Source: Arachis hypogaea
Lineage: Eukaryota; Streptophyta; Magnoliopsida; Fabales; Fabaceae
DNA length: 64,000 nt
Direction: 5' to 3'
Assembly (NCBI RefSeq): GCF_003086295.3
Contig: NC_092048.1
Span: 91,492,626-91,556,625 of the forward strand
Both the position numbers and the translations under genes were made by a program. Positions 1 to 63,095 of this stretch are shown here, one piece after another (within the stretch, counting starts at the first letter, position 1; every line of letters starts with the position of its first letter). The notes under the pieces are model-generated. The model ran no database searches. It saw only the letters and a program-made list of their open reading frames with translations, and was not told the DNA's origin.

Positions 1-753
1 GGCGATAAGTAAGTAATTGGTTGAATATTCATTAATGCTTTGATTCAAGTAAACATTGTGAATTTTACATGATTTCATGGGAATAATGCATGAATTAAAT
101 GATAAAATAGATGATTTATAATCTCTTGATCTAAGGCAGGACTTTGATGCACTTTGTTTGTTTGATTTCAGAAAAAAAGAAGCAAAGAAGAGCCGCGTTA
201 GTGGCCACGTTAATGCCACTAACGTGGCTATTAACGTAGAAGAGAAGCAAGCTTGCAACGTTAGTGGTGAAGTTAATACCACTAACGTCTTCGAAGGCCA
301 TTGTAGCCCACGTTAGTGCCACTAACGTGGAAGAAAAGAGAAGCTCCAACGTTAGTGGTAAAGTTAACACCACTAACGTTAGAAAGGCCAACATAAGCCC
401 ACGTTAGTGCCACTAATGTGGGCATTAACGTGGAGAATGAAGGGGAGCCAACGTTAGTGACACTAACATTGTCACTAATGTTGAAAATGGCCTAGGATAC
501 CCACGTTAACGCCACTAACGTGGGTATTAACATGGAGCAAGGAGAGAAGAGACAACGTTAGTGACACTAACTTTATTACTAACGTTGGAAATGGCCAAGA
601 AGCCCACGTTAGTGGCCATGTTAGTGCCACTAACGTGGGCACTAATGTAGAAGGGTAAAAGGTTTGCAATGTTAGTGACAAAGTTAGTGTCACTAACGTC
701 TTCGAGTCATAGTACACCCACGTTAATGGCCATGTTAGCACCACTAACGTGGG
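1..753 (+). mobile_element. LTR Z, left segment (partial)
   Basis: This is the U3-like left part of an LTR whose start lies before the window. It is AT-rich, has a TTTGATTTCAG stretch near 165-175 like that in the other LTRs, then a palindrome array. It is cut at 753 by solo LTR X and resumes at 2318. No coding sequence is supported; the minus-strand reading frames here simply traverse the repeats. Confidence 0.7.
193..753. repeat. Palindrome array, ACGTTAGTG word (LTR Z)
   Basis: There are many copies of an interrupted palindrome of the form ACGTTAGTGCCACTAACGT, often extended by CC...GG, separated by purine-rich spacers of about 20-40 bp. Variants replace G by A at CG sites. The array resumes at 2318 after the X insertion. 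It occupies the same LTR position as the other family-specific arrays in this window. Confidence 0.85.
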
Positions 754-871
754 TGATAAGAGAATTTGTTGTTGATCTAGATTTTCACAAAATAGAATTC
801 CATTGTTGAAAGTATAGTCTAAACCAACAATTAATTCCCAAATCAAATGTTTTAACTTCAAATTATAATAA

Positions 872-898
872 CCGAGATTGAGAGTAATTAAACCTCGG
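872..898 (-). other. U5 hairpin of LTR X
   Basis: CCGAG (872-876) pairs with CTCGG (894-898) across a 17-nt loop. Read on the minus strand it directly follows a GGGATAACGACC stretch, as in the other LTRs here. Confidence 0.5.
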
Positions 899-1873
899 GT
901 CGTTATCCCTAGGAGTTGCAATTAAGTGTACATTTATTGGCTATGAGGGAAATGGGGATTGAATGGCATGAGACAAGGAATGTAAATGGCAAGAAATATA
1001 AATTGCAAGAAATTAAAAGTCAAAACAATAAAAGTCAAAACAAGGAAAACTTCAAATGCAAGAAACCTCTTGGCAAGTAATTGAGAGCTAAGGTTACCTA
1101 TCCTAGCCATTGACCACAAACACATGATGATTATGAAGAGTTAATCCTACTTAGTCAACCCTACATCGAGGATAAGTCAAATATGCATAGTTAATTTCAA
1201 TCCATAAGTCCTATGTCAACACTAAGGATCACATAGAGTCAATGGAAACCAAATCAACTAAGTACTCTAATATATCAAACAAGAATGGACATCAATAACT
1301 TAAGGATCACCAAAGTCATCAATTTCAAGCCAAGAGTTAAGAAAAACTAAGTAAAAACTAAGCCAAGCATTTCATCAAACACTTGGTGTGCATGAAAATA
1401 AAATAATATTAAATTGCATTAAAATAAATTCTAAAGCTGCAAAAGCAAGAAAATAGCAATAACAACCAAAGTAAGCAATAAATGACATGGAAACATAAAT
1501 TGCATTAATTGAAAATAAAATTAGCATAGAATGTTCATAACATAAAAATGGCAAAATAAAGGAAATAACAAAGGAAATGAAGAAGAACAAAGATGCAATA
1601 ACAATAAATGACAAGGAACAGTAAATGAAAGCAAGAATTAAAAGTGGAAATTATAAGAAATTAAACTAAAAAAACCTAGGTTCTAGAGAGAAGCTCCCAC
1701 TTCTCTCTCTAGAAAATGAACTACATGACTAAAATCTAATCCTAATTGCTCCCCCCTCACAATGAGGCCTCCTTTGATATAGCACTCAATCAGCTTCAGA
1801 AGGTCCAAAACTGGGCCCTGGAGGCCCAAAAATTGCCCCTAACGATTTGCAATAAATGAGTCACGTGCTGGGA

Positions 1874-2018
1874 CTTGTGCGTACGCACAGGTGTGTGCGT
1901 ACGCACACATGCTGATTTTCTTCTTGTGCGCGCGCACAAAAGGTTGTGCGCATGCACGCATGGTTTTGTGGCTCTTGTGCGTATGCACACTAGGTTGTGC
2001 ACACGCACACTCCAATGT
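1874..2018. repeat. Palindrome array, TGTGCGTACGCACA word (LTR X)
   Basis: About eight copies or half-copies of TGTGCGTACGCACA and variants (TGCGCGCGCACA, TGCGTATGCACA) lie in about 145 bp. The position in the LTR matches B's CG-rich array, but the word is different. Confidence 0.8.
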
Positions 2019-2317
2019 GTGCTTCTCCTTTATTTTCTTCATGTTTTCTCCCAATCCCATGCTTTTCTTTCACTCTTATCAAGCCATTCCAACCTATTAC
2101 ACCTGAAATCACTCATCAAAACCATCAAGGTATCGAATGGGATAAAAGTGGGATAAAATTATTATAATAAGCACAAAATAGCATGTTTTTACAATTAAGC
2201 TTAATTAAGGGATAGAACACAAAAGTATGATGTTTGGATGAATAAATGTGGGTTTATATGATGAAATCTACTCAAATCAAACCAAAATATATCGTCAAAT
2301 ATGGATTCATCAGTGGG

Positions 2318-2552
2318 CCATTAACGTGGAAGAAAGAATGGATGTAACGTTAATGGTAAAGTTAATACCATTAATGTTATCAAAGGTTAGAAAAGGCTAC
2401 GTTAGTGGTTACGTTAGTGCCACTAACGTTGGGGTTAATGTAGCTCAAGAGGGTTGGGACGTTAGTGACAAAGTTAGTGTCACTAACATCTTCAAACCAG
2501 AATTTACACTTAACGTTAACCACACTAACGCCTTGACTAACGTGAATCATAC
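2318..2552. repeat. Palindrome array, ACGTTAGTG word (continued)
   Basis: This continues the array at 193-753 on the far side of solo LTR X, with the same ACGTTAGTGCCACTAACGT word and a looser TTAACGTTAACC form at the end. Confidence 0.8.
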
Positions 2553-2670
2553 TTGACTCAACTTTTTTCATGCAAGCTGAGCTAAGCCCATTGAGATTAT
2601 AACTGCTTCAACTATGCTTAAAGGCCCACATCCAGAGACTTGCAGACGAAACTGAAGATTAGAGAAGTAG

Positions 2671-4857: not shown

Positions 4858-5155
4858 TGATAAACCATTATTTTATGATTTATATTGTGTTTAATTGTTT
4901 GTTTTATCAAATCTTTACCCACTTATTCATATGATTAGCATGTATTTACAATTCCTTCCCAAAATCACTCCATGGTTAAAAACTTACTTCCTAGAGACCT
5001 TTAATTATGTATTTTAATTCTCCTTTATCCCATTCGATGCCGTAATCCGCGTGTTAAGTGTTTCAGGCTTCATAGGGCATGAATGGCTTAGAAATTGGAG
5101 AGGAGGCTTGCAAAAATCGAAGGAACACAAGAAACTAAGGAGATGACTAGCGAGC

Positions 5156-5345
5156 AATGACGTGAGCGCATGGTCCACACGAACGCGCAAAATGGAGAAT
5201 TCGCAATGACGCGGACGCATGCCTGATGTAAACGCATGGATTGTAGTCTGCACAAGTGACGCAAATGCATGGACGAAGCAAACGCGTGACAAGGAAAATC
5301 GCTGACTGACGCGAGCGCTTAGACAACGCGTACGCGTGACCTGCG
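5156..5345. repeat. CG-rich palindrome array in B 5' LTR
   Basis: There are repeated words around ACGCGTACGCGTGAC, many degraded at CG to TG or CA. The counterpart in the 3' LTR is about 16815-17010. The word resembles that of B's internal array at 12326-12863. Confidence 0.75.
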
Positions 5346-6221
5346 CGATCTGCAAAAATAACAGGATACGTTGGGGGCGATTTTGGACCGCTTTTTGACC
5401 CAGTTTTTAGCCTAGAAACACAAACTAAACCTAGGGAACATGCGAAAACTCAACACGCATCCACGGACATTCAGATTCATCACATTAGGATTACTCTTAG
5501 TTTTAGATCTGAGTTTTGAGAGTTGCATTACATTGATAGTTTATGCTTTTGCTTGGATTTTTGGATGCTGAGAGTCATTACCTCCATTGAAGACATTACT
5601 TTAGTTTGTTTCTTTACTCTCTTATTTTTAATTAGTTACTTATTGACTCTGTCCAGATAATTATGTTGCGTTTTGAATTTATTAATATATAGAGTTATTT
5701 TTATTTTAATTAATTTTAATTCTCTATTTTATTTTAATTAATTATGTCTTCTCATATCTTTATGATTATTAATTTCATGTCAATGGAGTAGAATTTCTAC
5801 TTGACATGGGGTTGATTAAGAGGTGATACTTGAGTTGGAATGCTCAAGTGCTTGGTTAAACTGGACGTTGTTAGCTAATTCCATACCTACTAACACTAGA
5901 CCTCTCCAAGGGAGAGGGCTAGGATCTGAGGGTAAGAGTTAGTTCAATCACCATACTTTCCCTTATTTAGTAAGGGGTAATCGAGTGAGAACAACAACCT
6001 TTTTACACCACACTTGAGAAGATCCCAACAAGGATCGAAGTTCCACTTAATTATTCCCCCAGTCAAGACCTTTTATTCAGAGTATCAATAATTATTTTCT
6101 TAGTTTATTTTTATTGTTTTAATTTTTAATCATTTTAATTACTCATTATCAAAACTCAATTTTTCTGAAAACCCCTAGTTTATAAAATAGCACTCTTTCT
6201 TGCAACTCGTTGGGAGACGAC

Positions 6222-6240
6222 CTGGGACTCATACTCCCAG
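6222..6240 (+). other. U5 hairpin of B 5' LTR
   Basis: CTGGGA and TCCCAG form a 6-bp stem with a 7-nt loop after GGGAGACGAC. The 3' LTR copy (17879-17897) has one mismatch in the stem. Confidence 0.6.
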
Positions 6241-6375
6241 TATTTTATTTCTGAAATTTGTGACAACCCTTTTTAAATTGGTGAGGCAGATCTTAGCCAG
6301 TTAAGAGCTATACGTGCAACGCTGTCTCTTAATTGAAATCTCTAAATTGGTTAACTTCTGCCACGCATCAATTTC

Positions 6376-7591: not shown

Positions 7592-7603
7592 GAAGACAAC
7601 ACT

Positions 7604-9169
7604 GTGGCAGCCACTCACAATTTCTATGACCGCCCGAATCAAGGATACAATCAACAAGGTGGCAACTACAACCAAAGTGGTAACTATAGCCACGGATGGC
7701 AGGAAAACTCCAACCAAGGTTGGAGAGATGATTCTAACCATGGCTGGAGGGATAACTTTAATAGAGGAGGCAGAGACAATAATAGAAACCAGAGGTGGAA
7801 TAACAATAACAACAACAGACAGCAGAATCAGAACCAGCCTTACAGAGCACCTCACCTAAGACAATCACAAGGACCCCAGCAAACCCAACAAGTTTCTCAG
7901 ACTGCTTATTCTAATTCCTCATCAAATGACGAGATGCTCCGTTCTCTTGCGCAAGGACAACAAGACATGCAAGCGCAGCTTAACTCTAGTCTGAATGGCT
8001 TGACTGCCACTTTACAAGCTCTCGTCTCCCGGATGGATTCCTCACTTAATTTCACACATCAACCTTCAAGCTCTAATGGAATTCCTTTTCAACCACTGCC
8101 TAATCCCAAGGGTGGCATCAATGCCATCACTCTAAGGTCCGGAACCACATTACAGGAAAGGAACCATGAAGAGCCAAACCCACCAGAAAACGTGTCAACA
8201 GAGGATGTGGTGGAAGTGGAAGATGCTGAAGAAGAAGAGGACGCACAAGACATAGTTGAAGAAGAGGAAGCTCAGCCACAGAAAGAAGCCCCAAGGGATG
8301 CAGAAGCTACAAATCGTGCCCCTCCTATTCCATTTCCACAACTTGCAAGGAAACCCAGAAAACAGATGGAACTCGATCCCAAAATGGTAGAAATATTCAA
8401 AAAGGTCGAGGTAACTGTTCCCCTTTTTGATGTTATTCAACAGGTACCTAAATATGCAAAGTTTCTAAAGGACTTGTGCATACATAAAGATAAAATTAAT
8501 GAATTAGAAACTATTCCTTTAGGTAGTTCTATATCTGCTTTAATGGAAAATATACCTGAAAAATGTAGTGATCCAGGTCCATGTATGGTTAACTGTACCA
8601 TTGGAGGTGTGATATTTTCTGACTGTATGTGTGATTTAGGAGCATGTGTTAGTATAATTCCTTTGTCTATATATGATACCTTGAGGCTCCCTCCCTTAAA
8701 AAGGTCGGTAGCTCGTTTTGTGTTAGCAGATAAAAGCATTATTACAGTAGTTGAAATTGCTGAAGATGTATTAGTGAGCATTAAGGGGCTTACATTTCCC
8801 ATTGATTTCTTCATCCTAGAAATGCCCCCTAATGACTCAGGAATACCATCATCAATCCTGCTTGGAAGACCATTCCTGAAGACTTCAAAGTTTAAGCTGG
8901 ATGCATTCTCAGAAACTTACTCTTTTGAAATAGATGGCAGAACAGTGAGTTTCAGTTTAAATGAAGCTATGAAGCATCCTCCGGAAGATTATTTTATCTT
9001 CCAATGTGACATTATTGATGAAACTGTAGCTGAATTTCACCAGGAAGAATTAGAAGAGAAGTACATGGACAAGGTCCAAGTGTGGGGACACTTTCTGAAA
9101 ATAATGAGAAGACTTTACCATTATCACCAGCCCCGGATGATCCAAAGCCTAGCTATGAGCAGAAACTAG
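7604..9169 (+). pseudogene. Element B gag C-terminus and aspartic protease
   Basis: This is in the same frame as the upstream gag. Residues 1-90 are Asn/Gln/Gly-rich with repeated W-R-D-N units, followed by an acidic stretch (about 200-225). The retropepsin part has CDLGACVSIIP, with the catalytic Asp at residue 344 (codon 8633-8635), and ends in the LLGRPFL flap-side motif near residue 420. The protease would cut the gag-pol polyprotein. Downstream pol is in another frame, implying a one-base indel near 9060-9090; the stop of this frame is at 9167-9169. Confidence 0.88.
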
Positions 9170-10278
9170 AATTATTATCACCAGTCCCGGATGATCCAGA
9201 GCCTAGCTATGAGCAGAAACTAGAATTAAAGCCCCTTCCTCCACACCTCAAGTATGCTTACCTTGAGGACAAGCAGAAGTTCCTAGTCATCATTGCAAAG
9301 GAACTCACTTCTCAACAGAAAGAACAGTTATTCAGTGTGCTGAGAAAACAAAAGAAAGCAATTGGATGGAGCTTGGCAGATATAGTAGGCATTAGTCCTC
9401 AAGTTTGTGAACACATAATATTCTTAGAAGAAGGAGCAAAGCCTATCCGTCAGCCTTAAAGAAGATTGAATCCCACCATCTTAGAAGTTGTCAAGAAAGA
9501 AGTAACCAAACTACTTGAGGCAGATATCATTTACCCCATCTCAGACAGTGAATGGGTCAGTCCAGTACAAGTGGTGCCCAAGAAGTCTGAAGTCACAACA
9601 ATAAGAAATGAGCACGGAGAGCTCTTGACAACTAGAGTGCAGAATTCATGGAGAGTTTGCATTAACTATAGGCGTCTCAACCAAGCCACTCGCAAGGATC
9701 ATTACCCCTTGCCATTCATTGATCAGATGCTTGATCGCCTGTCAGGTAAATCTCATTATTATTTTTTAGATGGTTATACAGGATACTTCTAAATTTATAT
9801 ATCTCCTGAAGATCAGGAGAAGAATACTTTTACATGTCCTTTTGGGACTTATGCATATAAGAAAATGCCCTTTGGCTTATGCAATGCACCTGCTACTTTC
9901 CAAAGATGCATGTTGAGTCTTTTCTCTGATATGATTGAGAACTGTATGGAATTTTTTATGGATGATTTCAGCATATATGGTGATTCATTTAGCCTTTGCT
10001 TGGACAGTTTATCTAGAGTATTTGACAGATGTGTTAGTACAAACCTTGTATTAAGTTTTGAAAAATGTCACTTTATGGTCAAACAAGGAATTGTACTAGG
10101 ACATGTTGTGTCTAACACTGGCATTTCTGTAGATCCAGCAAAGGTGGATGTTATTTCTAGTTTACCTTACCCCTCCTCTGTGAGGAAAGTCCGTTCGTTC
10201 CTTGGCCACGCAGGTTTTTACAGGAGATTCATTAAGGACTTCAGTAAGGTAGCATTACCTTTATCCAGATTACTGTAG
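9082..10278 (+). pseudogene. Element B reverse transcriptase
   Basis: This is a Ty3/gypsy RT. A linker with the duplicated PDDP unit is followed by LKYAYLE, the RT palm with PISDSEWVSPVQVVPKK, NYRRLNQATRKDHYPLPFIDQMLDRL, FGLCNAPATFQRCM, the catalytic FMDD (9955-9966), and the thumb with LGHVVS and FLGHAGFYRRFIKDFS. In-frame stops at about 9457, 9790 and 10276 break the frame. It converts element RNA to cDNA when intact. The order and spacing match Athila elements. Confidence 0.92.
9121..9228 (+). repeat. In-frame 54-bp tandem duplication in B pol
   Basis: Two adjacent 54-bp copies (9121-9174, 9175-9228) encode the repeated peptide LSPxPDDPxPSYEQKLEL, in the linker between protease and RT. 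They differ at very few positions, so the duplication is recent or held in frame. Confidence 0.85.
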
Positions 10279-11079
10279 AAAGAAATTGAGTTCGAGTTCA
10301 GTGAAAACTGTATGCAAGCGTTTGATAAGCTGAAGACCGCCCTGACTCAAGCTCCAATTGTGAGAGGACCAGACTGGAGCCAGCCATTTGAAATTATGTG
10401 TGATGCTTCCAACCATGCAGTAGGAGCAGCGCTGGCTCAGCGTGAAGGTAAGGACCCTTTTGTAATTACTTATGTATCTAAGACTTTAGATGCTGCTCAG
10501 TCTAATTACACTACTACTGAAAAAGAGCTTCTTGCTATTGTTTTTGCTCTGGATAAATTTCGAGCCTATTTACTTGGTACTAAGGTAGTATTGTACTCAG
10601 ACCATGCAGCTCTAAAATATTTATTGGCTAAAAAGGAGTCCAAACCAAGGCTAATACGTTGGATACTGTTGTTACAAGAATTTGATTTAGAAATTGAGGA
10701 CAGGAGTGGTAACCAGAATTTAGTGGCAGACCACCTGAGTCGCCTTGAGCACATTAAGGGTGACTCCACTCCTATAAATGATAATTTCCCATTTGATAAC
10801 TTACAAGCAGTATCTGAAGTAGTTCCTTGGTATGCACCTGTAGCTAATTATCTAGTTAGCCACACTTTTCCTCCATATTTTACTAAGCACCAGAGAGACA
10901 AGCTGAAAAGCGAGTCTAAATCTTATATATCGGACGATCCATATTTATGGAGGTGTGGTACTGACCAAGTAATTAGACGATGTGTGCCTCAATCAGAATT
11001 CCAGTCCATTTTAGAGGCCTGCCACTCATCTGAGAGTGGAGGACATTTTGGCCCTCAAAGAACAGCTAGAAAATTCTAG
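10279..11079 (+). pseudogene. Element B RNase H and integrase zinc-binding region
   Basis: This continues RT. RNase H degrades the RNA strand of the hybrid; its core is [32 protein letters not shown] and [10 protein letters not shown], ending in [13 protein letters not shown] linker leads to the integrase N-terminal His/Cys region ([23 protein letters not shown]). The frame ends at a stop at 11077-11079; beyond it the integrase N-terminus is scrambled by a frameshift up to about 11190. Confidence 0.9.
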
Positions 11080-12130
11080 ACTGTGGATTCTAGTGGCCTA
11101 ATCTTTTTAAAGATGCTGCTGAATTTTGTAAATCTTGTTCCCCATGACAAAGGTTTGGTAATATATCCAGGAGGGATGAGATGCATCAACGCTTATGCTT
11201 TTCTGTGAAATTTTTTATGTTTGGGGTATTGACTTCATGAGTCCATTTCCAAATTCTAACGGTTATTTTTATATACTGTTAGCCGTAGATTATGTTTCTA
11301 AGTGGGTGGAAGCAATTCCTACCCGTACTGATGATGCTAACACTGTTGTTTCCTTTGTTAGAAACCATATTATCTGTCGCTTTGGATCACCACGAGCAAT
11401 CGTGAGCAATCAAGGCACCCATTTTTGTAACAGGAGACTAACAGGATTACTGAAAAAGCATGGGATAATTCACAAAGTAGCAACAGCTTATCATCCCCAG
11501 ACCAATGGGCAAGCAAAAGTCTCTAACAGAGAGATTAAACATATCCTGGAGAAGATAGTAAAACCCCATAGGAAGGACTGGAGTGCCAGGCTACAAGATG
11601 CACTCTGGGCATATAGAACAGCGTACAAGACATCCATTGGGATGAGCCCCTTCCACTTGGTATACGGAAAGGCTTGCCACCTCCCCGTAGAGGTAGAACA
11701 CAAGGCTTTCGGGACTGTAAGAGAGTGAAACGTGAATCTTACGAAAGCTGGTGCTGAAAGAAAGCTACAACTAGCAGAACTAGAGAACCTCCACCTAGAA
11801 GCATATGACAACTCCAGGCGTTACAAGGAGAAAATGAAGGCTGTCAATGACAAGCACATTAAAAGAAAAGAATTCAGACCAGGGGAGTTAGTCCTACTAT
11901 ATAAGTCCAGACTAAGGTTCATGCCAGGTAAACTGAGATCAAGATGGGAAGGTCCATACAGAGTAGAGAAGGTAGAGCCATACAGAGTTTTCCACCTGCA
12001 TCATCTTACTATCTTCAAATTTCAAAAGTTCAATGGACATCGTTTAAAGCTTTATCATGGTGAGAAGATAAAGAATCAAAAGGAACTAGAGATCTTCCTC
12101 TTGGAAGACCCACCAAGAGAAATAGAATGA
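11080..12130 (+). pseudogene. Element B integrase
   Basis: The DDE integrase core inserts cDNA into the genome. The first Asp lies in [10 protein letters not shown] (near 11230). The second catalytic position reads VSNQGTHF, with Asn where the family has Asp (near 11410). The Glu lies in [11 protein letters not shown]. The C-terminal part includes [13 protein letters not shown], a stop at about 11726, then RRYKEKMK and a GKLRSRWEGPYRV segment, ending in PPREIE at 12130. The lost Asp, stop and upstream frameshift each predict an inactive enzyme. Confidence 0.9.
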
Positions 12131-12325: not shown

Positions 12326-12863
12326 CACGCACGCGACGCGGCAGCGTCGCTGATGCGTCCGCATCACCAAGGCGTATTGAAGAAAAGAGAATCGGAAAGA
12401 GAGTCACGCGAAAGCGTGGCTGGAGGCGTGCCTTAGACACAAACATGCCCACGCGTCCGCGTCACCACGCGGCCGCGTCATTTGGAAAATAAGCCTCCCA
12501 TGGGTCCGCGTCGCCCACGCGAATGCGTGCCCTTAAAAATCGACGTAAAAGAGGTGTATGGCAGAAAGTTATGATGGAGTGAGGCTGGAATGATGCTAGA
12601 AGCACCAGCCACGTCACGCGACCACGTGCCCCACGTGTTCGCGTCATCCTCCAGAAATGGCCATCCACGCGATCGCGTGAACCACGCGATCGCGTCACCA
12701 AACATTTTGGCAAATTCAGTTTGAGACAGAGAGTTGCGCAAATGCGTCGCTGCCCTCCCGCCATTCGCACAAATCAAGTCACACGACCGCGTGACCCACG
12801 CGTCCGCGTCGCTTGACAAAAATCACACACCACGCGATCGCGTGACTCACGCGTCCGCGTCAC
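12326..12863. repeat. CG-rich palindrome array in B interior
   Basis: There are many copies of words like CACGCGATCGCGTGAC and CACGCGTCCGCGTCAC in about 540 bp between pol and the aORF. They resemble the word in B's LTR and are better preserved at CG than the LTR copies. The reading frames crossing it are repeat artefacts. Confidence 0.85.
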
Positions 12864-13708: not shown

Positions 13709-14962
13709 ATGGCCACCAAGAAAGGCAAGGAGAAAGCTACTCCCAAACAACCAGCATGAAGAGGTACAAAAAGAGCATTAGTGGCAGAGCCATCTTCAAC
13801 AGCAGTAAAGCCCTCAACAAAAAGAATCAAGAGGATCATCAAGGTCAACGAAAAAGAAAAAGCCTTCCCAGCAAAGGACACTGCGCGGTTTTTTAACCGC
13901 TACTGAGAGCAGATGTTCCCCATCCTGGCAGAGAGGAATTACAACAATGAATACCTTCTCATCCTCCCGACCCGCATTGCTGAATTTGTTGAGCCGCAAA
14001 TTGAACGAACACAATGGGGATTCCTATGGAGACAGCCACGACAGGTTAATCTCTCAGGGGTAGTAGAATTCTACTCCAACTTTCACATGCCAACCATGCA
14101 GTCTGTCTATGTCCGTCAGAAGCAAGTCCCCATAACGGAAGAGGCCATTCAACAAGCTTTAGATCTTTTCCCTGCTCCAGAAGGATTGGACGCATTCCAA
14201 GAAGCCTCACTCAAGTGCCAGACATACCAATTTGACCGGGACTCTGTTCTCAGAGTTATAGCACAACCTGGCAGCAGATGGATCTACGGATACCATCGAT
14301 CTCGACCAAAAGGGATATCAGCTTCAGCACTTACCTTGGAGGCTCGAGTATGGGCACATATTATGTCTCATTACGTCTTCACGAGCACTCATGAGTCCTC
14401 CTTCACTGCAGACATGGCTGTTTTACTCTGGTGTATCCTTACAGACCAGCACCTAAACTTACCAAGACACATCCAAAATGCAATGGGACACGTACAAATT
14501 GCAAGAAACTTACCTTTTCCCACCTTAGTTTCAGATCTCGTCTCGGCAGCCGGAGTCTCTTACAGAGCTGGAGACACCAAAGCCTTCCTTCCATGGGATG
14601 ATCAGTATGTCCCTAACGGGAAATATATCAGATCACCAGCAGCCACTACAAGCCAGCCTACAGAACCGGCTGAAGACATTCCTTCTTCAACACCACAAGC
14701 ACCTACAACAAACCAACTGCTCCATCAGATCCTTGAAAGGTTGGATCGGCAGGAACACAAAGCAAAGCTAAGAGAGCGCCGTAATAAGCGCCGATTCACA
14801 TACCTCAAGGAGCTACTTTTGGGAAACTATAAAGACCCAGACACCTCGGAGTCCACTTCATTTACCAGCACAGGGAGCCATGACGATCCCGATGGTGGAG
14901 ATGCTGCTACCAGCCCCCCTTTGTTTCTGACAGATGGCACCGAGGACGGTGCAAAGCCTTAA
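13709..14962 (+). pseudogene. Element B aORF (extra ORF after integrase)
   Basis: The frame runs from ATG 13709 (MATKKGKEK, basic) to 14962, about 417 codons, with TGA stops at 13757-13759 and 13904-13906; the longest open part is 349 codons from 13913. The core (EFVEPQIERTQWG, VVEFYSNFHMP, ITEEAIQQALDLFP, TADMAVLLWCIL, LPFPTLVSDLVSAAGV) lines up in order with the aORFs of D and E. A C-terminal charged helix (LERLDRQEHKAKLRERR) resembles a coiled coil. No signal peptide or membrane segment is visible, so it does not look like an envelope protein. It resembles the family described as putative plant transposon protein; its function is unknown. Confidence 0.75.
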
Positions 14963-16518: not shown

Positions 16519-18027
16519 TGATAAACCATTATTTTATGATTTATATTATGTTTAATGTGTGGTTTTATATAATCTTTACCCACTTATTCATATGATTAGC
16601 ATGTATTTACAATTCCTTCCCAAAATCACTCCATGGTTGAAAACTTGCTTTCTAGATACCTTTAATTATGTATTTTAATTCTCCTTTATCCCATTCGATG
16701 CCGTGATCGGTGTGTTAAGTGTTTCAGGATTCATAGGGCATGAATGGCTTGGAAATTAGAGAGGAGGCTTGCAAAAATGGAAGGAACACAAGAAACTAAG
16801 GAGATGACTAGCGAGCAATGACGCGAGCGCATGGTCCACGCGAACGTGTAAAATAGAGAATTTGCAATGACGCGGACGGGTTCCTGACGTAAACGCGTGG
16901 ATTGGAGTCTGCACGAGTGACGCGAACGCATAGACGAAACGAACGCGTGACAAGGAAAATCGCTGACTGACACGAACACATGGACGACGCGTACGCGTGA
17001 CCTGCGCGATCTGCAAAAATAACAGAATACGCTGGGGGTGATTTCGGGCCATTTTTTGACTCAGTTTTTGGCCCAGAAACACAGACTAAACCTAGGAAAC
17101 ATGCAGAAACTCAACACGCATCCACAGACATTCAGATTCATCACATTAGGATTACTCTTAGTTTTAGATCTGAGTTTTGAGAGTTTCATTACATTGATAG
17201 TTTATGCTTTTGCTTGGATTTTTGGATGCTGAGAGTCATTACCTCCGTTGAAGACATTACTTTAGTTTGTTTTCTTATTCTCTTATTTTTAATTAGTTAC
17301 TCATTGACTCTGTTCAGATAATTATGTTGCGTTTTGAATTTATTAATATATAGAGTTATTTTTATTTTAATTAATTTTAATTCTCTATTTTATTTTAATT
17401 AATTATGTCTTCTCATATCTTTATGATTATTAATTTCATGTCAATGGAGTAGAATTTCTACTTGACATGGGGATTAAGAGGTGATACTTGAGTTGGAATG
17501 CTCAAGTGCTTGGTTAAACTGGACGTTGTTAGCTAATTCCATACCTACTAACACTTGACCTCCCCAAGGGAGAGAGCTAGGATCTGAGGGTAAGAGTTAG
17601 TTCAATCACCATGCTTTCCCTTATTTAGTAATGGGTAATCGAGTGAGAACAACAACCTTTTTACACCACACTTGAGAAGATCCCAACAAGGATAGAAGTT
17701 CCACTTAATTATTCTCCCAGTCAAGACCTTTTATTCAGAGTATCAATAACTATTCTTAGTCTATTTTTATTGTTTTAATTTTTAATCATTTTAATTACTC
17801 ATTATCAAAACTCAATTTTTCTGAAAAACCTCTAGTTAATAAAATAGCACTCTTTCCTGTAACTCATTAGGAGACGACCTGTGACTCATACTCCCAGTAT
17901 TTTATTTTTAAAATTTGTGACAACCCTTTTTAAATTGGTGAGGCAGATCTTAGCCGGTTAAGAGCTGTACGTGCAATGTTGTCTCTTAATTGAAATCTCT
18001 AAATTGGTTAACTTCTGCCACGCATCA
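16519..18027 (+). repeat. Element B 3' LTR
   Basis: This is 1509 bp with the same ends as the 5' copy. Many of its differences from the 5' LTR are C/T or G/A at CG sites in the palindrome array. GTAAC follows at 18028-18032. Confidence 0.95.
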
Positions 18028-30804: not shown

Positions 30805-30805
30805 A

Positions 30806-42056: not shown

Positions 42057-42137
42057 GAAACTCCTATCCAAGACCTAAAGGAAGCCAAGGCTTATATAGA
42101 GACTATAGAGGTTCCTTTGCATGCACTTCTATAGTTC

Positions 42138-43145: not shown

Positions 43146-43262
43146 CAAAAGGGCGTTGAACGCCAGTTCTATGCTGCAGTCTGAAGTTAAACGCCAGAAA
43201 CACGTCACAAACCAGAGTTGAACGCCAGAAACACGTTACAAACTGGCGTTCAACTCCAAGAA
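43146..43262. repeat. Palindrome array in E 5' LTR
   Basis: GGCGTTGAACGCCAG, AGTTGAACGCCAGAAACACG and TGGCGTTCAACTCC words. The 3' LTR copy is 61164-61271. Confidence 0.8.
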
Positions 43263-43374
43263 TGACCTCTCCACGTGTAAACTTCATGCTCTGCCCAAGC
43301 ACACACCAAGTGGGCCCCGAAAGTAGATTTATGCATCAATTACTTACTTCTGTAAACCCTAGTAACTAGTTTAG

Positions 43375-43384
43375 TATAAATAGG
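43375..43384 (+). promoter_or_regulatory. TATA box of E 5' LTR
   Basis: TATAAATAGG, about 110 bp after the array; the same in the 3' LTR (61389-61398). Confidence 0.65.
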
Positions 43385-44306: not shown

Positions 44307-44322
44307 CCTTACTCACGTAAGG
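44307..44322 (+). other. U5 hairpin of E 5' LTR
   Basis: CCTTAC and GTAAGG with a 4-nt TCAC loop directly after GGGATCGA. Copies also lie in E 3' (62321-62336), D and F LTRs. Confidence 0.65.
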
Positions 44323-44486
44323 TTTTATTACTTGGACGACCCAGTGCACTTGCTGGTTAGTTATGCGAAGTTGTGAAGTTATGTTTGGACCATGGTATTG
44401 TGCACCAGTTATTGGCGCCATTGCCAGGGAGAGAACGAACAACAAATTTTACAACCTCAGAGTAACAATTTCGCATACCAAGTTTT

Positions 44487-47379: not shown

Positions 47380-48922
47380 TGATGAGCAGATAATTTATAC
47401 GCATTTTGGCATTGTTTTTACTTAGTTTTTAGTATGATTTAGTTGGTTTTTAGTATATTTTATTAGTTTTTAATTAAAAATTACATTTCTGGACTTTACT
47501 ATGAGTTTGTGTATTTTTCTATGATTTCAGGTATTTTCTGGCTGAAATTGAGGGAGCTGAGCAAAAATCTGATTCAAGCTGAAAAAGGACTGCTGATGCT
47601 ATTGGATTTTGACCTCCCTGCACTCAAAGTGGATTTTCCGGAGCTACAGAACTTCAAATGGTGCGATCTCAATTGCGTTGGAAAGTAGACATCCAGGGCT
47701 TTCCAGCAATATATAATAGTTCATACTTTGCTCAAGGATAGACGACGTAAACTGGCATTCAACGCCAGTTCCATGTTGCAGTCTGGCATCCAGCGCCAGA
47801 AACAAGTTACAAGTTGGAGTTCAACGCCAGAAACAGGTTACAACCTGGCGTTGAACGCCCAAAACAGCCTAGGCACGTGAGAATCTTAAGTCTCAGCCCC
47901 AGCACACACCAAGTGGGCCCCAGAAGTGGATTTCTGTACTATCTATCATAGTTTACTCATTTTCTGTAAACCTAGGTTACTAGTTTAGTATTTAAACAAC
48001 CTTTAGAGATTTATTTTGCATCTCATGAAATTTTTAGATCTGAATTTTATACTCTTTGATGGCATGAGTCTCTAAACCCCATTGTTGGGGGTGAGGAGCT
48101 CTGCAGCGTCCCGATGAATTAATGCAATTATCTCTGTTTTCTATTCAAACCCGCTTGTTCCTATCTAAGATGTTCATTCGCGCTTCACTAAGAAGAAGGT
48201 GATGATCCGTGACACTCATCACCTTCCTCAATCCATGAACGTGTGCCTGACAACCACCTCCGTTCTATATTAGATTGAATGAGTATCTCTTAGATTCTGT
48301 AATCAGAATCTTCGTTGTATAAGCTAGAATTGATGGCGGCATTCATGAGAATCCGGAAAGTCTAAACCTTGTCTGTGGTATTCCGAGTAGGATTCAAGGA
48401 TTGAATGGCTGTGACGAGCTTCAAACTCGCGATTGTTGGGCGTAGTGACAGACGCAAAAGAATCAATGGATTCTATTCTGACATGATCGAGAACCAACAG
48501 ATGATTAGCCGTGCTGTGACAGAGCATTTGGACCATTTTCACTGAGAGGATGGGAAGTAGCCATTGACAACGGTGACACCCTACATACAGCTTGCCATGG
48601 AAGGAGCCTTGCGTGTGTGAAGAGGAGTACAAGAGAAAAGCTGAAATAAAGAGGACAAAGCATCTCCAAAACCCCAACATATTCTCCATTATTGAGTAAC
48701 AAGTATTTATTTTATGCCCTTTGACTTTTTACAATTAAAACTAAGAATTATTATTGATATTATATCCTGACTAAGAGTTACAAGATAACCATAGCTTGCT
48801 TCAAGCCAACAATCTCCGTGGGATTCGACCCTTACTCACGTAAGGTATTACTTGGATGACCCAGTGCACTTGCTGGTTAGTGGTACGAGTTGTAAAAAGT
48901 GTGATTCACAATTCGTGCACCG
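47380..48922 (+). repeat. Element F 5' LTR
   Basis: It includes a palindrome array (47752-47858) and U5 hairpin (48830-48845, CCTTAC/GTAAGG). The terminal dinucleotide has changed from CA to CG. Confidence 0.93.
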
Positions 48923-48928
48923 AGTTTT

Positions 48929-48946
48929 TGGTGCCGTTGCCGGGGA
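48929..48946 (+). promoter_or_regulatory. Primer-binding site of F (one change)
   Basis: TGGTGCCGTTGCCGGGGA, one mismatch to the tRNA-Asp type site. Confidence 0.88.
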
Positions 48947-52956: not shown

Positions 52957-53100
52957 AAGCCAGAAACAAGCACCAAGCTGGCGTTTAACGCCAGAAACAA
53001 GCATCAGTCTGGCGTTAAACGCCAGAAACAGGCTACATTTGGGCGTTTAACGCCAGAAACAGGCAGCAGTCTGGCGTTAAACGCCAGGATTACACAGTAA
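52944..53100. repeat. Palindrome array in F interior
   Basis: CTGGCGTTTAACGCCAG and CTGGCGTTAAACGCCAG words with AAACAAGCA or AAACAGGC spacers, fused to the RT remnant. Confidence 0.88.
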
Positions 53101-54611: not shown

Positions 54612-56155
54612 TGATGAGTGGATAATTTATACGCTTTTTGGCATTGTTTTTACTTAGTTTTTAGTATGATTTAGTTGGTTTTTAGTATATTTTTATTAAT
54701 TTTTAATTAAAAATCACATTTCTGGACTTTACTATGAGTTTGTGTATTTTTCTATGATTTCAGGTATTTTCTGGCTGAAATTGAGGGAGCTGAGCAAAAA
54801 TCTGATTCAGGCTGAAAAAGGACTGCTGATGCTGTTGGATTCTGACCGTCCTGCACTCAAAGTGGATTTTCTGGAGTTATAGAAGTCCAAATGACGCGCT
54901 CTCAATTGCGTTGGAAAGTAGACATTCAGGGCTTTCCAGAAATATATAATAGTGCATACTTTGCTCAAGGATCGACGACGTAAACTGGCGTTCAATGCCA
55001 GTTCCATGTTGCAGTCTGGCGTCCAGCGCCAGAAACAAGTTACAAGTTGGAGTTCAACGCCAGAAACAGGTTACAACCTGGCGTTGAACGCCCAAAACAG
55101 CCCAGGCACGTGAGAAGCTTAAGTCTCAGCCCCAGCACACACCAAGTGGGCCCCAGAAGTGGATTTCTGCACTATCTATCATAGTTTACTCATTTTCTGT
55201 AAACCTAGGTTACTAGTTTAGTATTTAAACAACTTTTAGAGATTTATTTTGCATCTCATGACATTTTTAGATCTGAATTTTATACTCTTTGACGGCATGA
55301 GTCTCTAAACCCCATTGTTGGGGGTGAGGAGCTCTGCAGCGTCCCGATGAATTAATGCAATTATCTCTGTTTTCTATTCAAACACGCTTGTTCCTATCTA
55401 AGATGTTCATTCGCGCTTCACTAAGAAGAAGGTGATGATCCGTGACACTCATCACCTTCCTCAATCCATGAACGTGTGCCTGACAACCACCTCCGTTCTA
55501 TATTAGATTGAATGAGTATCTCTTAGATTCTGTAATCAGAATCTTCGTGGTATAAGCTAGAATTGATGGCGGCATTCATGAGAATCCGGAAAGTCTAAAC
55601 CTTGTCTGTGGTATTCCGAGTAGGATTCAAGGATTGAATGGCTGTGACGAGCTTCAAACTCGCGATTGTTGGGCGTAGTGACAGACGCAAAAGAATCAAT
55701 AGATTCTATTCTGACATGATCGAGAACCAACAGATGATTAGCCGTGCTGTGACAGAGCATTTGGACCATTTTCACTGAGAGGATGGGAAGTAGCCATTGA
55801 TAACGGTGACACCCTACATACAGCTTGCCATGGAAGGAGCCTTGCGTGTGTGAAGAGGAGTACAAGAGAAAAGCTGAAATAAAGAGGACAAAGCATCTCC
55901 AAAACCCCAACATATTCTCCATTATTGAGTAACAAGTATTTATTTTATGCCCTTTGACTTTTTACAATTAAAACTAAGAATTATTATTGATATTATATCC
56001 TGACTAAGAGTTACAAGATAACCATAGCTTGCTTCAAGCCAACAATCTCCGTGGGATTCGACCCTTACTCACGTAAGGTATTACTTGGATGACCCAGTGC
56101 ACTTGCTGGTTAGTGGTACGAGTTATGAAAAGTGTGATTCACAATTTGTGCACCA
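54612..56155 (+). repeat. Element F 3' LTR
   Basis: TGATGAGTGG to TTTGTGCACCA. It has an array at 54983-55096 and U5 hairpin at 56063-56078. Confidence 0.95.
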
Positions 56156-57682: not shown

Positions 57683-57926
57683 GGCTTACTGGCGTTTAAA
57701 CGGCAGTAAGGAGCATCTGGCTGGCATTCAACGCCAGAACAGAGAATGGATCTGGCGTTGAACGCCCAAAACAAGCAGCATCCTGGCGTTCAGACGCCAG
57801 GAATGCACACTGAGGAAAGCTGGCGCTGAACACCAGAAACAAGCATAGAACTGGCGTTCAACGCCAGAAACATGCTGCATCTGGGCGCTGAACGCCCAGA
57901 ACAAGCATCAATTCGGTGTTTAAACG
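57683..57926. repeat. Palindrome array in E interior
   Basis: Seven or so CTGGCGTTCAACGCCAG-type words spaced about 30-35 bp, with AGAAACAAGCA-like spacers. Confidence 0.88.
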
Positions 57927-58485
57927 CCAGAATTGCATGCAAAGGCATTTTACATGCCTAATTGGTGCAGGGATGCAATTCCTTGACACCTCAGGATCTG
58001 TGGACCCCACAAGATCATCTCAGCATCTGTGGACCCCACAGGATCCCCACCTACCTCCACTCATACTCTTCCCTCTTCTCAATGTTCATCCTCTCTTCCC
58101 AATAAATACCCTTCCCCAAAACCCTTCACCAATCACCTCAAGCTCTCTTCCCTATTACCTATTCACTACTCACATCTACCCACTCTTCCCCATAAACCTA
58201 CTTCATACACCCCACCTACCTTCAAAATTCAAAATCACTTTCCCACCCAAACCCACCCTAAATGGCCGAACCTAACCCCTCTCCCTTCACTATATAAACC
58301 CCTCCATTCTTCTTCAATTTCACACAACACAACCCCCTCCTCCTCTTCTTGGCCGAAACACATCTCTCTCTCCCTCTTCTTCATTTCTTCTTCTTCTTCA
58401 TATATTCTTTCTTTTCTTGCTCGAGGGCGAGCAATATTCTAAGTTTGGTGTGGTAAAAGCATAGCTTTTTGTTTTTCCATTACCA
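57927..58485 (+). promoter_or_regulatory. Internal promoter region and leader of E aORF
   Basis: Two GGATCTGTGGACCCCACA palindromes (57990-58050), a C/T-rich stretch, TATATAAA at 58291-58298 followed by a CCCCTCC sequence, a TC-rich leader, then AAGTTTGGTGTGG and the ATG at 58486. The TATA-to-ATG spacing of 195 bp matches D. Confidence 0.6.
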
Positions 58486-59643
58486 TTGATGGCACCTAAG
58501 ACCGGAGAATCCTCTAAAAAAGGGAAAGAAAAGACAAAAACTTCTACCTCCGAGTCATGGGAGATGGAAATATTCATCTCCAAAGCTCATCAAGACCACT
58601 TCTATGATGTTGTGGCCAAGAAGAAGGTGATCCCTGAGGTCCCTTTCAAACTCAAGAGAAATGAGTATCCGGAAATCCGACATGAAATCCAAAGAAGAGG
58701 TTGGAAAGTTCTAACAAAACCCATCCAACAAGTCAGAATTCTAATGGTTCAAGAGTTCTATGCTAATGCATGGATCACTAGGAACCATGATCAAAGTAAG
58801 AACCAGAACCCAAAGAATTATCTCACCATGGTTCGGGGGAAATACTTAGATTTTAGTCCGGAAAATGTGAGGTTGGTGTTTAACTTGCCTATGATGCAAG
58901 GAGATGCACACCCCTACACTAGAAGGGTCAACTTTGATCAAAGGTTGGACCAAGTCCTCATGGACATATGTGTGGAAGGAGCTCAATGGAAGATTGACTC
59001 AAAAGGCAAACCGGTTCAACTTAGAAGACTGGACCTCAAGCCTGTGGCTAGAGGATGGTTGGAGTTCATCCAACGCTCCATCATTCCCACTAGCAACCGA
59101 TCTGAAGTTACTGTGGATCGAGCCATCATGATTCATAGCATCATGATTGGAGAGGAAGTAGAAGTTCATGAAGTCATCTCCCTTAAACTCTACAAAATAG
59201 CCGAAAAGCCCTCCCCCTTGGCAAGGCTAGCTTTCCCTCATCTTATTTGCCATCTATGTTACTCAGCTGGAGCTTTCATAGAAGGAGACATTCCCATTGC
59301 GGAAGAAAAGCCCATCACTAAGAAAAGGATGGAGCAAACAAGAGAGCCCACTCATGGAGCTCAAGAAACACGTGAGGAAGCTCATCATCAAGAAATCCCT
59401 GAGATACCTCAAGGGATGCACTTTCCTCCACAGAATTTTTGGGAGCAAATCAACACCTCCCTAGGAGAACTAAGTTCCAACATGGGACAACTAAGGGTGG
59501 AACATCAAGAGCACTCCATCATACTCCATGAAATTAGAGAAGATCAAAGAGCTATAAGGGAGGAGCAACAAAGACAAGGAAGAGACATAGAAGAGCTCAA
59601 GGACATCATTGGTTCCTCAAGGAGAAAATGCCACCATCACTAA
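58486..59643 (+). CDS. Element E aORF, intact (385 aa)
   Basis: This is the longest uninterrupted ORF in the window, 385 residues from MMAPKTGESSKKGKEKTKTS. After a basic N-terminus of about 20 residues, the core spans about 25-270: AHQDHFYDVVAKKKVIPEVP, YPEIRHEIQRRGWKVL, VQEFYANAWITRNHD, FSPENVRLVFNLPMM, FDQRLDQVLMDICVEGAQW, VDRAIMIHSIMIGEEVEV, HLICHLCYSAGAF. Residues about 310-375 are rich in Glu, Gln and Arg with heptad-like spacing and probably form a coiled coil. There is no signal peptide or membrane helix. It aligns in order with B's aORF despite low identity. The family resembles the plant transposon-protein domain; function is not known. Retention in elements without RT or integrase suggests a role useful in cis or to the element's transcription. 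Confidence 0.85.
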   Translation: MMAPKTGESSKKGKEKTKTSTSESWEMEIFISKAHQDHFYDVVAKKKVIPEVPFKLKRNEYPEIRHEIQRRGWKVLTKPIQQVRILMVQEFYANAWITRNHDQSKNQNPKNYLTMVRGKYLDFSPENVRLVFNLPMMQGDAHPYTRRVNFDQRLDQVLMDICVEGAQWKIDSKGKPVQLRRLDLKPVARGWLEFIQRSIIPTSNRSEVTVDRAIMIHSIMIGEEVEVHEVISLKLYKIAEKPSPLARLAFPHLICHLCYSAGAFIEGDIPIAEEKPITKKRMEQTREPTHGAQETREEAHHQEIPEIPQGMHFPPQNFWEQINTSLGELSSNMGQLRVEHQEHSIILHEIREDQRAIREEQQRQGRDIEELKDIIGSSRRKCHHH

Positions 59644-60788
59644 GGTGGACTCATTCCTTGTTCTTAAACTTTCTATTTTTCGTTTTCTTATATTAAATGT
59701 TTATCTATGTTTGTGTCTTTATAACATGATCATTAGTGTCTAAGTGTCTATGCCTTAAAGTAGTGAATATGAATCCATCACCTCTCTTAAATGGAAAAAT
59801 GTTTTAATTACAAAAGAACAAGAAGTACATGAGTTTCGAATTTATCCTTGAACTTAGTTTAATTATATTGATGTGGAGAAAATACTTTTTGTTTTCTGAA
59901 TGAATACTTGAACAGTGCATATGTCTTTTGAAGTTGGTGTTTTAGAATGTTAAATATGTTGGCTCTTGAAAGAATGATGAACAGGAGACATGTTATTTGA
60001 TAATCTAAAAAATCATAAAAATGATTCTTGAAGCAAGAAAAAGCAGTGAATACAAAAGCTTGCAGAAAAAAAAAAGAAAAAAATGGAGAAAAAAATAGAA
60101 AAAGAAAAAGCAAGCAGAAAAAGCCAAAAGCTCTTAAAACCAAAAGGCAAGAGCAAAAAGCCAATAACCCTTAAAACCAAAAGGCAAGGGTAAATAAAAA
60201 GGATCCCAAGGCTTTGAGCATCAGTGGATAGGAAGGCCTAAAGGAATAAAATCCCAGCCTAAGCGGCTAAACCAAGCTGTCCCTAACCATGTGCTTGTGG
60301 CGTGAAGGTGTCAAGTGAAAACTTGAGACTGAGCGGTTAAAGTCAAGGTCCAAAGCAAAAGAAGAGTGTGCATAAGAACCCTAGACACCTCTAATTGGGG
60401 ACTTTAGCAAAGCTGAGTCACAATCTGAAAAGGTTCACCCAATTATGTGTCTGTGGCATTTATGTATCCGGTGGTAATACTGGAAAACAAAGTGCTTAGG
60501 GCCACGGCCAAGACTCATAAAGTAGCTGTGTTCAAGAATCAACATACTGAACTAGGAGAATTAGTAACACTATCTGAACTCTGAGTTCCTATAGATGCCA
60601 ATCATTCTGAACCTCAATGGATAAAGTGAGATGCCAAAACTATTCAAGAGGCAAAAAGCTACAAGTCCCGCTCATCTGATTGGAGCTATGTTTCATTGAT
60701 ATTTTGGAATTTATAATATATTCTCTTCTTTTTATCCTATTTGATTTTTAGTTGCTTGGGGACAAGCAACAATTTAAGTTTGGTGTTG
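59644..60788 (+). other. E spacer between aORF and 3' LTR
   Basis: Noncoding. An A-rich stretch (60010-60130) and two CTTAAAACCAAAAGGCAAG units are followed by conserved blocks shared with D, F and G, ending AAGTTTGGTGTTG at the LTR in place of a clear polypurine tract. Confidence 0.75.
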
Positions 60789-62494
60789 TGATGAGCGGAT
60801 AATTTATACGCTTTTTGGCATTGTTTTTAGTATGTTTTTAGTAGGATCTAGTTACTTTTAGGGATGTTTTCATTAGTTTTTATGTTAAATTCACATTTCT
60901 GGACTTTACTATGAGTTTGTGTGTTTTTCTGTGATTTCAGGTATTTTCTGGCTGAAATTGAGGGAATTGAGCAAAAATCAGATTCAGAGGTAGAAGAAGG
61001 ACTGCTGATGCTGTTGGATTCTGACTTCCCTGCACTCAAAGTAGATTTTTTGGAGCTACAGAACTCAAAATGGTGCGCTTCCAATTGCGTTGGAAAGTAG
61101 ACATCCAGGGCTTTCCAGCAATATATAATAGTCCATACTTTGGCCGCGTTTAGACAACGCAAAAGGGCGTTGAACGCCAGTTCTACGCTGCAGTTTGAAG
61201 TTAAACGCCAGAAACACGTCACAAACCAGAGTTGAACGCCAGAAACACGTTACAAACTGGCGTTCAACTCCAAGAATGACCTCTCCACGTGTAAACTTCA
61301 AGCTTAGCCCAAGCAAACACCAAGTGGGCCCTGGAAGTGGATTTATGCATCAATTACTTACTTCTGTAAACCCTAGTAACTAGTTTAGTATAAATAGGAC
61401 TTTTTACTATTGTATAAAGGGGGATCTTTGATCAGTTTTATACTATCTTAGACTTTCATGGGGGCTGGCCATTTGGCCATGCCTGGACCATTATCACTTA
61501 TGTATTTTCAAACGGTAGAGTTTCTGCACTCCATAGATTAAGGTGTGGAGCTCTGCTGTTCCTCATGATTTAATGCAAAGTACTACTATTTTCTATTCAA
61601 TTCAGCTTATTCCGCTTCTAAGATATCCATTCGCACCCAAGAACATGATGAATGTGATGATTATGTGATGCTCATCATCATTCTCACTTATGAACGCGTG
61701 CCTGACAAACACTTCCGTTCTACATGCAACCAAGCTAGAATGAGTATCTCTTAGATATCTAATACAGGGGACCGAGTCCGAGTTATTAGTATCTTCGTGG
61801 TATAAGTTAGAACCCATGGATGGCCATTCCTGAGATCCGGAAAGTCTAAACCTTGTCTGTGGTATTCCGAGTAGGATCTGGGAAGGGATGGCTGTGACGA
61901 ACTTCAAACTCGCAAGTGCTGGGCATAGTGACAGACGCAAAAGGATTGTAAATCCTATTCCAGTATGATCGAGAACCTCCAGATGATTAGCCATGCCGTG
62001 ATAGAGCATTTGGACCATTTTCACAGAGAGGATGAGATGTAGCCATTGACAACGGTGATGCCCTTACAGAAAGCTTGCCATGGAAAGGAGTAAGACTGAT
62101 TGGATGAAGACAGCGGGAAAGCAGAACTTCAGAGGAACGAAAGCATCTCTATACGCTTATCTGAAATCCTCACCAATGAATTACATAAGTATTTCTATCT
62201 TTATTTTCTGTTTATTTATTATTATTATTCGAAAACTCCATAACCATTTGATATCCGCCTGACTGAGATTAACAAGATGACCATAGCTTGCTTCATACCA
62301 ACAATCTCCGTGGGATCGACCCTTACTCACGTAAGGTTTTATTACTTGGATGACCCAGTGCACTTGCTGGTTAGTTGTGCGAAGTTGTGAAGTTATGTTT
62401 GGACCATGGTATTGTGCATCAGTTATTGGCGCCATTGCCAGGGAGAGAACGAACAACAAATTTTACAACCTCAGAGTAACAATTTCGCATACCA
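60789..62494 (+). repeat. Element E 3' LTR
   Basis: This is 1706 bp, the same length as the 5' LTR. It includes an array (61164-61271), TATA (61389-61398) and U5 hairpin (62321-62336). GCAGG follows. Confidence 0.95.
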
Positions 62495-62499
62495 GCAGG

Positions 62500-62786
62500 G
62501 CTTTGCAGAGCCCCCAAACATCAATTCTAAGTTTGTTGTTGGGAAGCCATCAACAAGCTCTAAGCACAAAGGTACCAAGAAGAAAGTACCTAAAGGCTGG
62601 AAGGACAAGAAAGTCCCAACTGAAGGCCTCTCACCTGGCATGAGAGTTGTCTTTACCACGAAACCCGTCATACCACATACAGTGAGTTGTATACTATCTC
62701 TAGAGCATGTGGAGCTCTTTCATGAGAAGACAGGAAGAAAGTTCACTGTAAGGGGCGAATATCTGAGCCCATACTCACCTCCGTAA
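62500..62786 (+). pseudogene. Element C ORF, C-terminal part
   Basis: This continues C's protease frame exactly in phase across the E insertion: GFAEPPNINSKFVVGKPSTS, KKKVPKGWKDKKVPTEGL, then HVELFHEKTGRKFTVRGEYL and SPYSPP. The last part resembles the C-terminal tail of Athila pol (GRKFxVNGxRxxxY type). This suggests that RT-RNase H-integrase was deleted between protease and the pol tail. It contains one NSKF unit like those of D and E. Confidence 0.7.
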
Positions 62787-62826
62787 GGAGCTAACCGTCA
62801 AGCTAGTGATGTTAAAGAAGCGCTTA

Positions 62827-62842
62827 TTGGGAGGCAACCCAA
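62827..62842 (+). other. Post-pol hairpin of C
   Basis: TTGGG-AGGCAA-CCCAA next to AAGAAGCGCTT. Confidence 0.6.
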
Positions 62843-62969
62843 CCTTAATTAATTATTTTTATTTTCTTTTATTTTCTTTTTCTTTAATTTATAATTTAGG
62901 TTCGTGATCATATGCAGCAGTCAGAACAGAGACAGAAATGTCAAAGCAGAGAAAATAGAACACTCTGGA

Positions 62970-63095
62970 TGGAGTGTTACTGGCGTTGAACACCAACCAG
63001 GGAGCAGACCCTGGGCGTCCAACACCGCAAATAGGCAGCATTGCTGGCGTTGAATGCCAGCCAGGGAGTAGACCTTGGGCGTTCAAACGCCAGTG
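62970..63095. repeat. Palindrome array in C, pre-aORF spacer
   Basis: CTGGCGTTGAACACCA, TGGGCGTCCAACACCG and CTGGCGTTGAATGCCAG words. This is the third array site of C, besides the LTR and the gag-protease junction. Confidence 0.8.

Follow-up and report, generated by a model that had tools for sequence, protein, structure and literature searches.

A 64,000-bp stretch of the Arachis hypogaea genome (the window; G000:C13:91492626-91556625) is a nested stack of long terminal repeat (LTR) retrotransposons, B, E, F, D and G, that carry arrays of short palindromic words, differing between families and repeated at strict spacing, before the LTR promoter (Table 1). In B and in C-G such arrays also stand before an additional open reading frame (aORF), whose product in element F has a predicted fold that appears similar to that of VANC21, an Arabidopsis protein through which a transposon evades silencing. 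We see about an even chance that the arrays are duplex-DNA sites for a dimeric family-specific protein, most likely the aORF protein, with a role in recognition or de-silencing. A gypsy-type lineage that combines the Sirevirus layout with strict spacing rules and a predicted VANC-like reader appears to be new. The study covers one genome of 2.56 Gb and a few full elements. An earlier note on the window had described the arrays and proposed such a reader; its observation was partly confirmed and its interpretation partly supported. Additions made here are the strict spacing, the gag-PR linker array, a separate word in a CACTA transposon and a TATA box before the aORF.

Arrays were located by scanning for the words with mismatches allowed. 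Palindromes containing some G+C occur in the window approximately 4- to 7-fold above dinucleotide shuffles, and in B and C-G they precede both the LTR promoter and the aORF. The arrays are real and show more order than the earlier note describes. The word of C-G is GGCGTTNAACGCC; it is found in the LTRs, ahead of the aORF and within the gag-PR coding stretch, mostly at 31-32 bp spacing. A distance of 31 bp amounts to about three turns of DNA. The B word, ACGCGNNCGCGT, comes in pairs 17 bp apart that repeat at approximately 50 bp in both LTR and interior; the interior pairs are 16-17 bp apart, often with 33-34 bp between pairs and with larger gaps of 45-53 and 99 bp. Each word has constant arms around 1-2 free central bp; the distance between words is rigid and the spacer sequence variable. 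Because the arms are fixed and the centres free, we read the words as dimer sites on duplex DNA. The LTRs of B and of the probable solo LTR X share two short collinear stretches of similarity, one near the start (80 bp at 71%, E 1e-4) and one near the end (38 bp at 82%, E 5e-5), and have their arrays at equal offset, yet the words differ symmetrically on both arms. The CpG observed/expected ratio was 1.12 in arrays versus 0.35 elsewhere, with several C-G arrays at 0.5-0.8; this enrichment is partly circular, since the words contain CG. Covariation between the arms was too weak to lean on.

The words are also found across the genome. TCTGGCGTTNAACGCCAGA occurs 14,447 times versus 0 for the reversed control, TTGTGCGTACGCACA 5,921 times on both strands versus 1, and the Z word 2,393 times versus 0. 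Pairs of the C-G word within 17-47 bp number 92,757 (reversed control 0), and pairs of the B word within 13-43 bp number 55,259 (reversed control 11). Among the 100 matches listed for C-G, all 65 distinct places have a spacing of 31 bp; the 50 distinct places listed for B comprise 31 at 17 bp, 13 at 33 bp, four at 32, 34 or 35 bp and two at 29-30 bp. The places in both lists come first on contig C1; they are a non-random set that includes some near-identical copies, and their spacers and word centres differ. In eight cases among the listed C-G pairs, two arrays with one word and unlike spacers lie 3.0-3.4 kb apart, which looks like a further two-array family. In viral contigs the C-G word was found in 17 stretches, each with a single palindromic match, and the search of prokaryote genomes gave no match.

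These data bear on the possibility that the arrays are neutral tandem repeats, in which a 31- or 50-bp unit grew by slippage, with template switching between LTR and interior, and the palindrome is incidental. A tandem repeat finder does return 31-bp units in both the LTR and the interior of C-F, many units in the two places have the common spacer start GAAACA, and tandem arrays between pol and the 3' LTR are described in approximately half of the Retand elements surveyed (PMC11963269; here and below, cited papers are represented by the parts of their text that were available). Since LTR and interior often have the same spacer start, unit copying is part of the C-F story. The assertion that the two arrays lie in different sequence holds for B, where word and pair spacing are identical and the spacers differ, and for G, where the interior and coding arrays carry other spacers, but not for many C-F units. 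As a general account we give neutral growth very little credence: at the 65 listed places arms and spacing are fixed and the spacers differ widely (the search pattern itself demands perfect arms), and slippage would not predict dyads across families, or words that differ symmetrically as those of B and X do. The preference of the earlier note for protein sites over tandem repeats survives in the fixed arms, rigid spacing and varied spacers, and is qualified by the copying of units in C-F.

Another possibility is that the palindromes form hairpins, in RNA or in single-stranded DNA, that would signal packaging, guide reverse transcription or give rise to small RNAs. Some spacers of the listed C-G pairs are palindromic themselves (CAGCCAGGGCACCTGGCTG), so that adjacent words of such 31-bp units can form one long stem, and the palindromes of maize Sireviruses are hotspots of small RNAs (Bousios 2016, as cited in PMC10760457 and PMC5311732). 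We nevertheless consider hairpins improbable, because centres of 0-2 bp allow no loop unless pairs open, the B spacers do not look palindromic, and independent hairpins need no rigid spacing of 31 or 17/33 bp.

If the words are duplex-DNA sites, the candidate reader is the aORF protein. Residues 36-300 of the F aORF product, with the domain taken alone, were modelled confidently; the predicted fold appears VANC21-like, with a long helix in the C-terminal part. The AlphaFold model of the full-length protein was poor (pTM 0.36). Comparison with PDB sequences gave nothing useful, and a structure search of BFVD gave no significant match. In an hmmscan search with 67 members, 47 families were matched; the 25 shown include neither DUF1985 nor DUF287, and the others have one member each at E > ~0.09. 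The proposal that the aORF protein is the reader, made by analogy with VANC, is favoured by the predicted fold and finds no match to the VANC domains among the families shown. Among named entries the F aORF is best matched by sequences of Arachis hypogaea and A. stenosperma, with 73-91% identity in the first ten. One Arachis hypogaea gene model (P0071) joins MYB/trihelix-like Pfam domains to an Athila aORF-like C-terminus, either an annotation chimera or a capture.

In elements E, F and G, a TATA box and a CT-rich leader separate the interior array from the aORF; no clear TATA was seen by eye before the aORF of B. Elements with PF20167 are abundant in the genome (71,409 first-look candidates, 150 of them scored), and the 30 best-scoring loci, a non-random set, were taken for comparison. 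TATAWA is present from -450 to -100 bp of the first in-frame ATG in 16 of the 30, against a shuffled mean of 2.9 and maximum of 7 (300 shuffles); at several loci the ATG used differs from the usual start. The wider pattern TATAWA or TATAAG, counted without shuffle control, is present in 26 and absent from four. Distances are typical of the family, at -195 in S and approximately -320 in R. With a TATA box in most of these loci, an internal promoter for the aORF seems common, as judged from sequence. In B and C-G the interior array may serve this promoter as the LTR array serves the LTR promoter.

The same 30 loci fall into families S (18), R (10) and K (2). Identity of the PF20167 domain is 35-47% among S, R, K and F, and 24-27% between B and all others. 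In one region each of S, R and K, arrays lie past the aORF, at the place expected for the 3' LTR; the LTR location of the S, R, K and Z arrays rests on this placement, with no second LTR seen there. The words are TGCCCT..AGGGCA in S, CGTTGCC..GGCAACG in R and GGCGTGGCACGCC in K. Because each family's own half-words are the most frequent at its LTR place, the five aORF subfamilies seen each have a main word of their own there. The earlier claim that words differ by family holds to that extent, and is softened by the R array, which additionally holds 12 F-type and 8 K-type half-words, and by the X word, which is found at two further loci (L067 and L068) without detected similarity to the X LTR. 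At L067 the X-type words lie inside a 1.1-kb repeat that is present twice, and no similarity to window proteins was found for either locus. An open reading frame at L060 matched no Pfam family.

The claim that LTR and interior share a word has a narrower reach. Half-word counts (LTR place/pre-aORF stretch) were 20/0 in S, 19/0 in R, 25/0 in K, 5/9 in F and 10/25 in B; the sequence ahead of the K aORF appears to be broken up by another element, which qualifies the K count. No CG-bearing palindrome was found within 1,500 bp before the domain at any of the 30 loci, and the identical rule recovered 2 in F, 3 in E and 7 in B as positive controls. Since S, R and K have no half-words before the aORF (K interrupted), the interior copy of the word is a feature of B and C-G. 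The identity between the two places that the earlier note expected of other families is therefore kept in B and C-G and missing from S and R, with K left undecided. Words TTGCATCGATGCAA at 715-870 of locus L080 were considered as a K interior array and rejected, as a TATA on the opposite strand suggests the LTR of another element.

These families bear on the possibility that the words are host transcription factor sites, enhancer arrays of the sort proposed for Sireviruses, here with each Athila family tuned to its own factor, and that the aORF protein is not their reader. In Sireviruses each element has its own palindromic word, whose CpG-rich arrays precede the LTR TATA box and cluster upstream of env, and Bousios et al. 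(2010) considered nuclear factors (PMC2829016). The presence of LTR-place but not interior words in S and R, the X word at places without similarity to X, and the foreign half-words in R all fit a host factor. Seven words within a single genome (B, C-G, Z, X, K, R and S, with B and X having a common core) are, however, many for ordinary host factors, and this reading leaves the VANC21-like predicted fold of the element-encoded protein to chance. We regard a host factor as a serious but unlikely explanation.

The Sirevirus arrays are also the closest match in layout: both systems place arrays before the LTR promoter and before an extra gene, the latter in B and C-G but not in S and R. Sireviruses are Ty1/copia elements, whereas those here are Ty3/gypsy by gag and pol. 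The words here lack the CGG-CCG core common to 12 of 13 Sirevirus motifs, no reader is known for Sireviruses, and the Sirevirus account available in PMC2829016 gives no spacing grammar. VANDAL elements likewise have a family-specific motif, in tandem in their non-coding parts, that differs between related elements (Hosaka 2017, PMC5735166; Sasaki 2023, PMC10398659). They resemble the present system in family-specific words and an element-encoded protein, of seemingly similar predicted fold here. A VANDAL is a Mutator-like DNA transposon, whereas these are LTR retrotransposons with gag and PR. The VANC motif, YAGTATTAY, is non-palindromic, unlike our words, and VANC, for which binding and demethylation were shown (PMC5735166; PMC10398659), carries the DUF1985 and DUF287 not matched here among the families shown.

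The 3' aORF(+) of sunflower Athila carries the identical Pfam domain, Transposase_32, at the same element position (PMC11728184), with nuclear localisation predicted and no function assigned in the text available (PMC11728184, PMC12844716); a 2026 sunflower paper states that whether such Athila ORFs act on the element's epigenetic landscape has yet to be investigated (PMC12844716). For Retand, the authors suggested DNA binding by the TRP28 ORF, which is antisense and has another domain, and the arrays are not described as palindromic in the part available (PMC11963269). In the open-access literature searched on palindromes in Athila or Arachis LTRs, on Athila with VANC and on VANC21, most subscription papers being outside this scope, we found no earlier account of a link between Athila and VANC.

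The remaining features place these arrays in the window. Element G hosts both E and F, and D is nested within F. Element B has a gypsy-type gene order, with gag at 6500, PR/RT/RH/INT at 7592-12130 and the PF20167 aORF at 13907 followed by the 3' LTR (RT and INT partly by eye); pol was not seen in E and F. We take the lineage to be Athila (Ty3/gypsy), from the PF20167 domain. The gag-PR linker array of G alternates 31 and 32 bp, giving 63 bp or 21 codons; the linker has at least 152 matches in the genome (from 40,533 candidates, of which 150 were scored). These are similarities at the protein level, and dozens lie within open frames of at least 300 codons. The distance between Z words is 40-63 bp, often 50-52, and a Z-type array precedes gag at one further locus (L076), as a 5' LTR would, with no LTR pair seen. 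X lies within the Z array, so that the word array of one family has been inserted into that of another.

The CACTA-type transposon that splits G gag has CACTA ends, a 3-bp target-site duplication (TSD) and subterminal repeats, the palindromic word GCCACGCTTTNAAAGCGTGGC lying at both ends (~24900-25260 and 29410-29820). In CACTA/En-Spm elements the subterminal repeats are bound by TNPA. The likeness to our arrays lies in word arrays near both ends; CACTA is a DNA transposon and its word is unrelated. A second CACTA-like end (CACTACAAGAAAAAGC) with TTTGTAACAAAA-type repeats lies in the G pre-aORF leader at 63359-64000 and seems to leave the window.

Table 1. Elements, word arrays, aORFs and TATA boxes in the window
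Feature	Position	Strand	Details
Element B LTRs	4858-6370 and 16519-18027		gag, pol, aORF present
Element E LTRs	30998-32691 and 40143-41836	-	gag, PR, aORF
Element F LTRs	42774-44480 and 60788-62494		gag, PR, aORF
Element D LTRs	47380-48946 and 54612-56154		nested within F
X, probable solo LTR	754-2312	-	within Z array; TSD GTGGG (749-753/2313-2317), by eye; weak homology to B LTR
CACTA-type DNA transposon	24878-29840		within G gag; TSD GAA; ends GACTACAAGAAAA ... TTTTCTTGTAGTG; first base G at one end
Z array	193-753		word ACGTTAGTGNCACTAACGT; resumes ~2318-2531 past X insertion
X array	1876-2010		word TGTGCGTACGCACA; pairs 18-20 bp apart, period 49-51
B 5' LTR array	5160-5337		word ACGCGNNCGCGT, 0-4 mismatches; spacings 17,32,17,33,17,33,17
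B 3' LTR array	16821-16998		spacings identical to B 5' LTR
B interior array	12336-12860		word ACGCGNNCGCGT; between integrase and aORF
E 3' LTR array	32208-32315	-	word TGGCGTTNAACGCCA; spacing 31; 5' LTR copy 41353-41460
E interior array	35564-35772	-	before aORF; word scan
F 5' LTR array	43151-43258	+	31-bp spacing; 3' LTR copy 61165-61272; ~115 bp before TATAAATAG
F interior array	57722-57897	+	before aORF; word scan
D 5' LTR array	47753-47860	+	31-bp spacing; 3' LTR copy 54986-55093
D interior array	52979-53086	+	aORF mostly missing, C-terminus left (by eye)
G gag-PR linker array	30787-30990	+	words GGGCGTTCAACGCCC / TGGCGCTGAACGCCA; spacing 31/32; interrupted by element E; stops break frame
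G gag-PR linker array, far side of E	41846-42022	+	open frame 41799-42134
G interior array	62981-63091	+	spacing 32
B aORF	13907-14962	+	Transposase_32 (PF20167), Pfam
E aORF	34148-35035	-	PF20167, Pfam
F aORF	58465-59643	+	PF20167, Pfam; ATG at 58489
F internal TATA box	58291-58297	+	TATATAA; 198 bp before aORF ATG 58489
G TATA box	63341	+	ATATAAATAC; ~250 bp past interior array

With a family-specific protein as reader, the system would work as follows. A dimer would bind the array words on duplex DNA upstream of the LTR promoter; in B and C-G it would bind, too, ahead of the putative internal promoter that drives the aORF. The reader would be the aORF protein, acting through its PF20167 domain of VANC21-like predicted fold. 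By binding its own family's word it would act on copies of that family, recognising, de-silencing or activating them, and the differing words would keep families apart. Of this scheme, the arrays with their words, spacing and places, the TATA boxes and the predicted fold with its VANC21 match are observed; binding by a protein, its dimerisation, the aORF product as reader, promoter activity and anti-silencing are inferred. Family words together with this predicted fold suggest that the elements may hold their own reactivation key. More tentatively, and at somewhat less than even confidence, we propose that Athila carries anti-silencing of the VANC type, in which a PF20167 protein kin to VANC binds the family palindrome at both promoters and lifts the silencing of that family only.

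The predicted fold and the palindrome before both promoters make the function of the aORF one binding question, and the spacings of 31 bp and 17/33 bp amount to a precise candidate grammar for binding, represented at tens of thousands of places in the genome. If the aORF protein binds its own word, word and reader may co-evolve in retrotransposons as they do in VANDALs, which would help to explain how related families coexist. If the VANC-type proposal is true, the 'env-like' ORF of Athila would be a nuclear DNA-binding regulator, and sequence-specific anti-silencing would span both major classes of plant transposons.

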